From positions 6,014,001-6,078,000 of the forward strand of contig NZ_CP145732.1 of assembly GCF_036884845.1 (NCBI RefSeq): 64,000 bases of DNA. The letters run 5' to 3'. Made by a program: the position numbers and the translations under genes. Shown here one piece after another: positions 38,921 through 51,658 of the stretch (the stretch's first letter is position 1; every line of letters begins with the position of its first letter). The notes below the pieces were generated by a model. The model made no database searches. It saw nothing but the letters and a program-made list of their open reading frames with translations, and had not been told where the DNA came from. Origin of the DNA: Pseudomonas sp. MAG733B. GTDB taxonomy: Bacteria; Pseudomonadota; Gammaproteobacteria; Pseudomonadales; Pseudomonadaceae.

Positions 38921-38995
38921 TTCGCGAGCAAGCCCGCTCCCACACTGGATCTTCGTCTTATGGAGATCAAATGTGGGAGCGGGCTTGCTCGCGAA
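38921..38995. repeat. REPIN-type inverted repeat (GTGGGAGCGGGC class)
   Basis: Perfect 24-bp arms at 38921-38944 and 38972-38995. Tails of the two REPs point inward. Located between the convergent dauR and binding-protein genes. Confidence 0.88.
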
Positions 38996-39970: not shown

Positions 39971-40066
39971 CCTTCGCGAGCAAGCCCGCTCCCACAATGG
40001 GTCTGTGTCGTACACAAAATTTGTGTTCAACCAGACCCATTGTGGGAGCGGGCTTGCTCGCGAAGG
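39971..40066. repeat. REPIN with perfect 35-bp arms
   Basis: Arms at 39971-40005 and 40032-40066 are exact reverse complements around a 26-bp spacer. Longest uninterrupted inverted repeat in the window. Located between moaE and the binding-protein gene in a 308-bp gap (39782-40089). The rest of that gap shows nothing else I can support. Confidence 0.9.
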
Positions 40067-48967: not shown

Positions 48968-50137
48968 ATGAATACCGCCGTCAACGCCAACGTAGTGCAT
49001 GAATCCGAAGCCCAGCGCCAACACGCCCGCGTGAAAATCCCGGCCAAACTGCGCTTCTTCGGTCCTGACCGTACGCCGGTCGAAGCCCGGGTCATCGACC
49101 TGTCCGCCGGTGGCCTGGCGTTCAACGCCGGTCAACTGCCGCTGAAGGTCGGCGAGGTGTACAAGGCCCGCCTGCAGTTCGTCATCGACAACCTCGGCCT
49201 GGCCATGGACGTCGAGTTGCAGATCCGCTCGTTCGATCGCCAGACCGGTCGCACCGGTTGCCAGTTCCAGAACCTGGAACCGCAAGACATCTCGACCCTG
49301 CGCCACCTGATCACCTCTCACCTGGCGGGCGACATCGTCAGCATTGGTGAAGTGCTGGCGACCCTGCAGCGCGACAACTTCACCAAGGCGCGCAAGATCA
49401 AGGACGGCGGCCACGGCATGAGCGCGTTCGGTCGCATGAAAGCCGTGACCTTCAGCCTCGGCGTTTTCGTCATCGGCCTGGCGGCATTCGGGTTCATCTT
49501 CAAATCGGTGTACGGCATGTACTTCGTCAGCCACGCCCAGGCCGGTCTGGTCAGCGTGCCGGGCGTGAACATCACCATGCCTCGCGACGGCACCGTGCAG
49601 AGCCTGGTGAAAGCCGACGGCGTCGCCGCCAAAGGCGCACCGCTGGCGACGTTCAGCACCAGCATGCTCGACGTACTCAAAGGTCACCTGGAAGACGATC
49701 AACTGTCCCCGGCCAAGGTTGAAGAACTGTTCGGCAAGCAAATGACCGGCACCCTGACTTCACCGTGCGATTGCACCGTGGCCCAACAAATGGTCGCCAA
49801 CGGTCAGTACGCCAGCAAAGGCGACGTGATTTTCCAACTGGTGCCACGCAATACCGAAGCCAACGTTGAAGCGCGCTTCTCCTATCGCCAATTCGGCGAC
49901 GTCCTGCCAGGCACCGCCGTGCGCTTCCAGATCGCCGGCGAAGACAAGACCCGCACCGGCAAGATTGTCAGCAGCACCAGCCTGAAAAGCGCCGACCTGT
50001 CTTCCGACATCCGCGTCTTGATCCAGCCTGACGAAGCGCTGGACAGCACCCTCGCCGGCCGCCCGGTAGAAGTGAACAGCGACCGTGGCCCGAACCTGAA
50101 CTGGCTGATCGACAAAGCCATGGCTGCTGGTCTGTAA
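48968..50137 (+). CDS. alg44: Alginate co-polymerase and c-di-GMP receptor Alg44
   Basis: 389 residues. The N-terminal PilZ domain (about 14-110) binds c-di-GMP through QRQHARVKIPAKLRF and DLSAGGLAF. A single membrane helix at about residues 160-182 leads to a periplasmic HlyD-like domain (PRDGTVQSLVKADGVAAKGA). It activates Alg8 when c-di-GMP is bound and links to AlgK in the periplasm. Starts 36 bases after alg8. Confidence 0.96.
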   Translation: MNTAVNANVVHESEAQRQHARVKIPAKLRFFGPDRTPVEARVIDLSAGGLAFNAGQLPLKVGEVYKARLQFVIDNLGLAMDVELQIRSFDRQTGRTGCQFQNLEPQDISTLRHLITSHLAGDIVSIGEVLATLQRDNFTKARKIKDGGHGMSAFGRMKAVTFSLGVFVIGLAAFGFIFKSVYGMYFVSHAQAGLVSVPGVNITMPRDGTVQSLVKADGVAAKGAPLATFSTSMLDVLKGHLEDDQLSPAKVEELFGKQMTGTLTSPCDCTVAQQMVANGQYASKGDVIFQLVPRNTEANVEARFSYRQFGDVLPGTAVRFQIAGEDKTRTGKIVSSTSLKSADLSSDIRVLIQPDEALDSTLAGRPVEVNSDRGPNLNWLIDKAMAAGL

Positions 50138-50146
50138 CCGGAGGAC

Positions 50147-51658
50147 ATGCCCGTGACGACTCCAGATCTTGTGAACACACCACATCCCCTGTGGGAGCGG
50201 GCTTGCTCGCGAATGCGGTTCAACATTCAAAATCAATGCCGGCTGACACACAGCTTTCGCGAGCAAGCCCGCTCCCACATGGGGTCTCTGTGTGCAGTTG
50301 CATTGGCAGTCAGCCTCGCCGGCTGTGCCGGCCTGCCCGACCAACGCCTGGCCAACGAAGCGCTCAAGCGTGGCGACACCGCCACCGCAGCGGCGAACTA
50401 TCAGCAACTGGCAGACCTGGGCTACAGCGAAGCCCAAGTCGGTCTGGCTGACATTCAAGTCGACAGCCGCGACCCGGCGCAGATGAAGCAGGCCGAGGCG
50501 ACTTACCGCGCCGCCGCCAGCGTTTCACCTCGTGCCCAGGCGCGCCTCGGTCGCCTGCTGGTCGCCAAGCCCGGCTCCACCGAAGCCGAGCAGCACGAAG
50601 CCGAAACCCTGTTGAAGAAAGCCTCCGCCGCTGGCGAAGGCAACACCCTGATCCCGTTGGCGATGCTGTACCTGCAATACCCGCACAGCTTCCCCAACGT
50701 CGACGCACAGAAACAGATCAGCCAATGGCGCGCCGAAGGCAAGCCGGAAGCAGGTCTGGCGCAAGTGCTGCTTTATCGCACCCAAGGCACCTACGACCAG
50801 CACCTGGACGATGTGGAAAAGATCTGCAAAGCCGCGATCAACACCACCGATATCTGCTACGTCGAACTGGCCACGGTTTATCAGAAAAAAGCCCAGCCTG
50901 AACAACAGGCCGAGCTGATCAAACAGATGCAGGCCGGTCACGCTCGCGGCACTGTTTCCGCCCAACGCGTGGACAGCGTCGCCCGTGTGCTCGCCGATTC
51001 GACCCTCGGCACGCCCGACGAAAAAACCGCGCAATCGCTGCTCGAACCGATCGCTCCGGGCTACCCGGCGTCGTGGGTGACCCTCGCGCAACTGCTCTAC
51101 GACTTCCCCGAACTGGGCGACGTCGACCAGATGATGAAGTACCTCGACAACGGCCGCGCCGCCGACCAGCCGCGCGCCGAGCTGTTGCTGGGCAAGCTCT
51201 ACTACGAAGGCAAAATGGTCCCGGCCGACGCCAAGGTCGCCGAGGAACATTTCCAGAAAGCCGTCGGCCGCGAAGTCGCCGCCGATTACTACCTCGGCCA
51301 GATCTATCGCCGTGGTTACCTGGGCAAGGTCTATCCACAGAAGGCTCTGGATCATCTGCTGACCGCTGCGCGCAACGGTCAGAACAGCGCCGACTTCGCC
51401 ATCGCCCAACTGTTCTCCCAAGGCAAAGGCACCAAGCCTGACCCGCTCAACGCTTACGTCTTCAGCCAACTGGCCAAGGCCCAGAACACCCCGCAAGCCA
51501 CCGAGCTTGCGCAAACACTCGAAGCCCAACTGCCGCCTGCGCAGCTTGCCGAGGCCCAGCGCCTGTTGAAACAGGAACAGGCCGTTCGCGGCAACTTGAG
51601 CCAGAACGCGTTGCCATTGCACGCGCTGCAAGAAGAAGACGGTGAGGAAACCCTATGA
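50147..51658 (+). CDS. algK: Alginate secretion scaffold lipoprotein AlgK, with REPIN-derived N-terminal extension
   Basis: Outer-membrane lipoprotein with Sel1/TPR-like repeats, needed to localise AlgE and join the export complex. The best start is the ATG at 50147, with CGGAGGA in front. It gives 503 residues, and the lipobox LAGC puts the acylated Cys at residue 60. Residues 15-45 are coded by a 90-bp REPIN (50190-50279) that stays in frame, so the signal-peptide N-region is about 45 residues long. Internal ATGs at 50213 and 50279 have poor or no Shine-Dalgarno. From residue 46 onward the protein reads as normal AlgK, with repeats such as [20 protein letters not shown]. The last four bases overlap algE. 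Confidence 0.9.
50190..50279. repeat. REPIN inside the 5' end of algK
   Basis: Perfect 24-bp arms at 50190-50213 and 50256-50279 of the GTGGGAGCGGGC class, tails pointing outward. Flanking bases 50160-50189 resemble the spacer of other REPINs here. Its total length of 90 bp is a multiple of three. Confidence 0.92.

Follow-up and report, generated by a model that had tools for sequence, protein, structure and literature searches.

A probably translated REPIN in the signal-peptide region of algK recurs across Pseudomonas

Introduction

How does a repeat that is regarded as an extragenic element come to lie in frame inside the gene of a secreted lipoprotein, and is it read as protein there? In the available portions of the respective reports, REPINs are randomly distributed through extragenic space (PMC3116915), REP elements of the Pseudomonas fluorescens group accumulate in non-coding regions (PMC3390384), and a survey of P. 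fluorescens repeats takes intragenic repeats as protein domains (PMC2718517). A 64,000-nucleotide stretch of the genome of Pseudomonas sp. MAG733B, hereafter the window, raises this question, given that a sequence-only reading placed a REPIN within the signal-peptide region of its algK gene and regarded it as an odd, singly tolerated copy. Here we describe this locus in the window, in the host genome and in its relatives.

Results

In the window, algK follows an open frame at 48968..50137 (+ strand), which we take to be alg44 and whose stop lies 9 nt before the algK ATG. The Shine-Dalgarno sequence GGAGG is read directly at 50140..50144 (+), which bears out the strong ribosome binding site noted earlier. 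The open frame of this alginate export lipoprotein (503 aa; 50147..51658, +) starts with the ATG at 50147 and runs through both REP arms without a stop, bringing the lipobox cysteine to residue 60, exactly as the sequence-only reading had it. Its first 14 residues (50147..50190, +) are followed by an 88-bp REPIN of two inverted REP arms (50191..50278, +), which begins 44 nt into the frame and would code for AlgK residues 16–44 (WERACSR ... REQARSH). The left arm (50191..50210, +) is of type GTGGGAGCGGGCTTGCTCGC (A1), the right arm (50259..50278, − strand) is of the same type, both 20-nt cores are exact, and a spacer (50211..50258, +) separates them. Downstream of the REPIN lie the 15 residues of the hydrophobic core and lipobox (50279..50323, +), and the codon of Cys60 (50324..50326, +), which by eye is the presumed lipoprotein cleavage site. 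In the search for related loci, the window protein was closest to Pseudomonas AlgK loci, and its identity as AlgK is borne out by matches to solved structures: residues 61–503 match 3e4b (3.5e-250) and residues 60–500 match 7ula (3.4e-198). The likeness to solved AlgK thus starts at residue 60–61, i.e. at the lipobox Cys, indicating that the mature part is AlgK-like.

The perfect 24-bp inverted repeat claimed for this region is indeed present, with TGTGGGAGCGGGCTTGCTCGCGAA starting at 50190, its exact reverse complement ending at 50279, and 42 bp in between; it can be extended to 34-nt arms with 91% complementarity. Both arms start with GTGG, in agreement with the GT(A/G)G rule for REP arms given in the available part of PMC3686654, and the 20-nt REP core (at most 3 mismatches) occurs nine times in the window, where shuffled sequence would give 0.03. 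Two more REP doublets, in head-to-head order, are located at window positions 38924–38992 and 39976–40061. The 23-nt arm occurs in 201 plus 198 exact copies (399 in all) in the 6.65-Mb single-contig host genome, a high copy number as in other REPINs; the reversed control pattern has none. The same genome holds 208 matches of the general REPIN pattern, each strand counted, and A1 is the commonest of the six arm types counted in it (400 of 711 arms). The host genome also has two matches to the Y1 transposase domain (Y1_Tnp) above the Pfam cut-off, which are candidates for a REP-associated tyrosine transposase.

As far as the available portions of PMC3116915 and PMC3390384 describe them, REPINs and REPs of the P. 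fluorescens group share with the algK repeat the inverted doublet, the conserved ends, the variable spacer and the hundreds of copies. Among relatives, the SBW25 group I 16-mer given in the part of PMC3116915 at hand forms the start of the right arms of loci L220 and L262. Those REPINs are described there as extragenic, whereas the algK doublet lies in frame within a gene. Since an extragenic site is a usual rather than a structural property of REPINs, we call the algK repeat a coding REPIN.

We scanned 61 REPIN doublets in 40 stretches (800 kb) of the host genome, chosen mostly at listed REPINs, plus the window. Open frames extend over 19 of the 61, of which the algK protein was checked against solved structures, the L348 protein against Pfam and some of the others by eye. 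In L348 (17739–17825; about C1:2037739–2037825 of the host genome), a REPIN lies in frame in urea carboxylase, between the Pfam domains CT_A_B (367–639) and CT_C_D (705–924); thus algK is not the sole gene with a coding REPIN. At L350:8056–8143, the REPIN frame runs into a protein that by eye is thioesterase-like, probably as an upstream extension.

The algK repeat is by no means a single tolerated oddity, as the sequence-only reading had supposed. A REPIN occupies the equivalent place in 72 of the 80 nearest AlgK loci (the best 80 of 208 loci, from named Pseudomonas genomes), and is absent from the remaining eight (L046, L082, L090, L091, L092, L097, L104 and L105). The proposed comparison of algK 5′ ends therefore did yield repeat-free alleles (L046, L104 and others), and relatives do not all share the repeat-bearing form. 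L186, whose N-terminus equals that of L104, lacks the repeat, and its junction is compatible with a deletion between the CTGTG repeats found at both ends. In the repeat-free algK of L092 and L153, the conserved ATG is out of frame with the lipobox. Including the window, 73 REPINs have lengths of 85 bp (59), 88 bp (8), 100 bp (4) and 118 bp (2), every one of which is 1 mod 3, and the flanks compensate exactly, with 38, 41 or 44 nt before and 48 or 51 nt after the repeat. At L047 (identical in sequence to L123) and L060, a REPIN is nested in the remnants of another one; the inner repeat has a different reading frame, after which the original one is regained, suggesting that re-insertion happens too.

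A wider survey extended these observations over the genus. AlgK was present in 356 of 398 genomes, of which 200 were sampled by AlgK similarity and by hand among weaker matches, and 199 loci were scored, leaving out L300; this set overlaps with the named one, 34 survey N-termini being identical to named ones. Based on peptide motifs, 109 of the 199 loci read the repeat, or what is left of it, as the window does (LWER...REQARSH and variants; class LW), a count that includes remnants and L250, which is without a recognised arm. In another 26 loci, REP elements are read in another frame (17; VGAGLARD...IAGKPAPT) or are otherwise arranged (nine). No REP motif was matched in the remaining 64, yet at least L293 and L294 among them have REP arms. 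The 17 loci, L210, L252 and 15 more, read the algK REP as VGAGLARD...IAGKPAPTQS, perhaps from an independent insertion. In L206, L208, L231, L271, L272, L302 and L303, REP arms stand head-to-head inside the algK N-terminal frame. The four class labels require 31 changes on the tree of the AlgK body against 77.3 when shuffled, on a FastTree phylogeny of AlgK alone in which support is good for 90 of the 196 inner branches and weak for 54.

We then compared the arms at algK with the REP pool of their own genomes, counting exact 20-nt arms of six types across 80 of the 109 genomes of class LW (60,323 arms, algK arms included). Where the algK left arm belongs to one of these six types, it is the commonest of them in its genome in 53 of 72 cases (shuffled mean 18.9), and the right arm in 35 of 55 (shuffled 10.6); for neither arm did any of 10,000 shuffles reach as high a match. 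On the AlgK tree, the left arm must have switched label at least 35 times. To remove shared descent, 26 non-overlapping closest pairs that differ in the left arm were examined, 25 of which are concordant with the pool and one discordant (sign test, 4e-7). On average, the type of the algK arm makes up 0.525 of the pool on the left and 0.479 on the right, close to the 0.478 and 0.466 for a random draw from the own pool. Some arms depart from their pool: type C right arms rank second to sixth in the pools of their eight genomes, and in G372, G167 and G002 the B1 arms are fourth.

The spacer is comparatively private to the locus. A 24-nt spacer pattern (at most 2 mismatches) is present in 39 of 80 algK copies and at just 168 other places in those 80 genomes, compared with their 60,323 REP arms, and in 12 genomes algK is its sole match. 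For 96 REPINs with ends set by pattern (85 bp, 71; 88 bp, 12; 100 bp, 9; 102 bp, 2; 103 bp, 2), spacer distance correlates with left-arm distance at 0.35 and with AlgK-body distance at 0.08, and no pair among them combines a near-identical spacer (at most 3 differences) with a clearly different left arm. Given these correlations and the lack of such a pair, arm-only conversion is not directly seen; conversion of arms alone around a frozen spacer is supported in part only, and replacement of whole REPINs may contribute to the turnover of arms. Two array-like loci lie elsewhere in the genomes: nine spacer-pattern matches with an exact 56-bp period at G252:C1:2573890–2574361, which look like a REP-derived tandem array, and five same-strand REP arms about 116 bp apart at G372:C1:1122008–1122490, which look like a tandem REPIN array.

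These data bear on whether a single ancestral insertion, with arm types changed solely by exchange of algK alleles between species, could account for the locus. Most carriers share the insertion point and the skeleton of the 85-bp spacer, as such a history would predict, and the repeat-free alleles TSP(L/I)RILPVPLTLAMAIALAGC are found in two separate parts of the tree. However, allele exchange alone would not make the arm follow its own pool in 25 of 26 sister pairs, and other lineages have REP elements in another frame or arm order. We thus consider a single insertion with allele exchange rather improbable.

The arms might also pair in the mRNA just past the start codon, as the sequence-only reading had anticipated, and the fold predicted for 50120–50340 is very stable (−109.6 kcal/mol, z −5.88). 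REP elements affect mRNA stability, and the distance from ATG to REPIN is nearly constant (38–44 nt), both of which would suit a hairpin about 44 nt into algK that tunes translation or mRNA stability and is kept by selection. Against it, the close relatives L186, L185 and L122 are without the repeat, and L244, L259, L222 and L215 retain parts alone, so that a hairpin function is not needed; the survey loci without a REP motif match (L293 and L294 having arms nevertheless) point in the same direction. Moreover, arm identity tracks the genome pool, a pattern for which homogenisation alone would suffice. A selected hairpin is accordingly improbable in our judgement.

Whether the repeat is translated depends on the start codon. 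If the annotated start were wrong and translation began past the repeat, the REPIN would be an untranslated leader between alg44 and algK. The window does have an ATG at 50280, 15 codons ahead of the Cys, and the available part of PMC3733652 argues, for P. putida, that N-terminal REPs are mostly non-coding. No Shine-Dalgarno sequence is visible at this internal ATG, which is preceded by the C-rich right arm, and the short form of the window protein would lack any positive charge ahead of its hydrophobic core. We examined 143 distinct REPIN-bearing N-termini in which the right arm was found, its end being set by a loose pattern. An internal ATG is present in 84 of them, with an SD-like sequence ahead of it in six. 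The other 59 have no ATG between right arm and core; GTG or TTG occurs in 41 of these, leaving 18 N-termini with neither ATG, GTG nor TTG after the repeat.

At the upstream start of the 199 survey loci, the SD-ATG motif is in frame with the Cys in 146, out of frame in one and without a motif match in 52. Within the LW class it was recognised in 105 of 109 loci, and in all 105 it is in frame and stop-free to the Cys over 13 distinct lengths, whereas stops occur in the +1 frame of 105 of 105 and in the +2 frame of 84 of 105. In the host genome, 63 of 86 listed REPINs have a length of 1 mod 3 anyway, so that by itself the frame of the 88-bp class is a weak argument; because of this bias, the coding argument rests on the variety of lengths, including the partial deletions in L222 (40 residues), L244 (42) and L215 (53). 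Of the two start options offered by the sequence-only reading, the long n-region is thus favoured by the comparison of frames, while an internal start is rejected as a general answer on the 59 of 143 N-termini without ATG and the six SD-like sequences among 84. A mis-annotated start therefore appears quite unlikely to us.

A codon-position test was also applied to the repeat. Pairwise differences in the spacer of the 59 85-bp REPINs are 0.276, 0.280 and 0.243 at the three positions, against 0.189, 0.047 and 0.416 for the last 36 nt up to and including the Cys, which support constraint on the hydrophobic core and lipobox. For the codons ahead of the REPIN (last 23 nt), the third-position difference is 0.38 versus 0.222 and 0.209; the arms give 0.068, 0.141 and 0.144 on the left and 0.239, 0.105 and 0.148 on the right. 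Since the spacer has no third-position excess, this test was rejected as proof that the repeat is translated, and the coding case relies on frame and stops. With the spacer unconstrained by codon position and the core constrained, the frame is preserved while the residues are free. Among 146 N-termini, n-region length and charge vary, while hydropathy averaged over the 15 residues ahead of the Cys remains at 1.79–1.84 in all four classes.

Frames in GC-rich DNA are often open, but given the nine core matches, the constant frame in relatives and the recurrence in 72 of 80 named-set loci, which excludes it, the chance that the repeat is an accident or annotation artefact is practically nil.

Discussion

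We consider it likely, on genomic comparison, that the algK REPIN is translated within an expendable n-region that is cleaved off, and that such repeats settle there, are filtered by reading frame and become homogenised with the REP family resident in the genome. A lipoprotein n-region needs little beyond some positive charge and is discarded upon cleavage. In the window, the REPIN would code for about 29 of the 44 residues ahead of the hydrophobic core of the AlgK signal peptide. Being within the n-region, the repeat-coded part should be removed by signal peptidase II, leaving mature AlgK without any repeat. Since nearly any sequence of nearly any length would be tolerated in an n-region, REP-associated transposases could bring in REPINs that settle there, and in-frame insertions into so undemanding and disposable a segment should be nearly free. 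Insertions that are out of frame or add a stop would destroy algK and be removed by selection; REPINs, which are stop-free in more than one frame, would suit this space. Once resident, the arms would be repeatedly replaced or converted by the prevailing REP type of the genome, with the spacer mostly retained at the locus or swapped between species. More tentatively, and with somewhat less than even confidence, we propose that the algK n-region is a standing docking site in which the resident REP family rewrites the arms in place, arm by arm, while the reading frame filters the variants that settle.

Repeats in coding sequence have precedents, here compared on the available portions of the reports. 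Rickettsia palindromic elements (PMC10969869, PMC3733652) are likewise palindromes in frame in real genes; we liken them by description and claim no kinship. Unlike them, algK is one site with REPs over much of a genus, in a part expected to be cleaved, and its insert keeps evolving in concert with other copies. The intragenic GTAG/CGTC REPs of PMC3733652 resemble the algK case in lying within open frames, some of them N-terminal. That report takes most N-terminal REPs, of P. putida and others, as non-coding, whereas the frame, stop and start tests at algK favour coding. In enterobacteria, one predicted signal peptide, that of YPO1552, is partly built from the RU-2 repeat (PMC2759123). This is a single predicted case; comparative frame or pool tests belong to algK, and the part of that report available to us contains none for RU-2. 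No literature on a REP or REPIN in algK was found, judged by titles and abstract openings. Coding REPs are thus already known, while a genus-wide, concertedly evolving REPIN that codes for part of a signal peptide did not appear in the literature searched, mostly by title and abstract opening.

In summary, REPINs are usually called extragenic, and algK offers one orthologous coding site that can be read over some hundred species, where the turnover of the repeat can be placed on a tree and tied to the REP pool of each genome. Two questions become testable at this site: does conversion or transposition keep REP sequences alike, and are N-terminal REPs translated? Gene starts that hold repeats may be wrongly trimmed in annotation. 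The findings suggest that the n-regions of lipoproteins offer mobile DNA an expendable coding space; if the docking-site proposal is true, a stretch of the coding sequence of a secreted protein would evolve in concert with selfish repeats rather than with its own gene.
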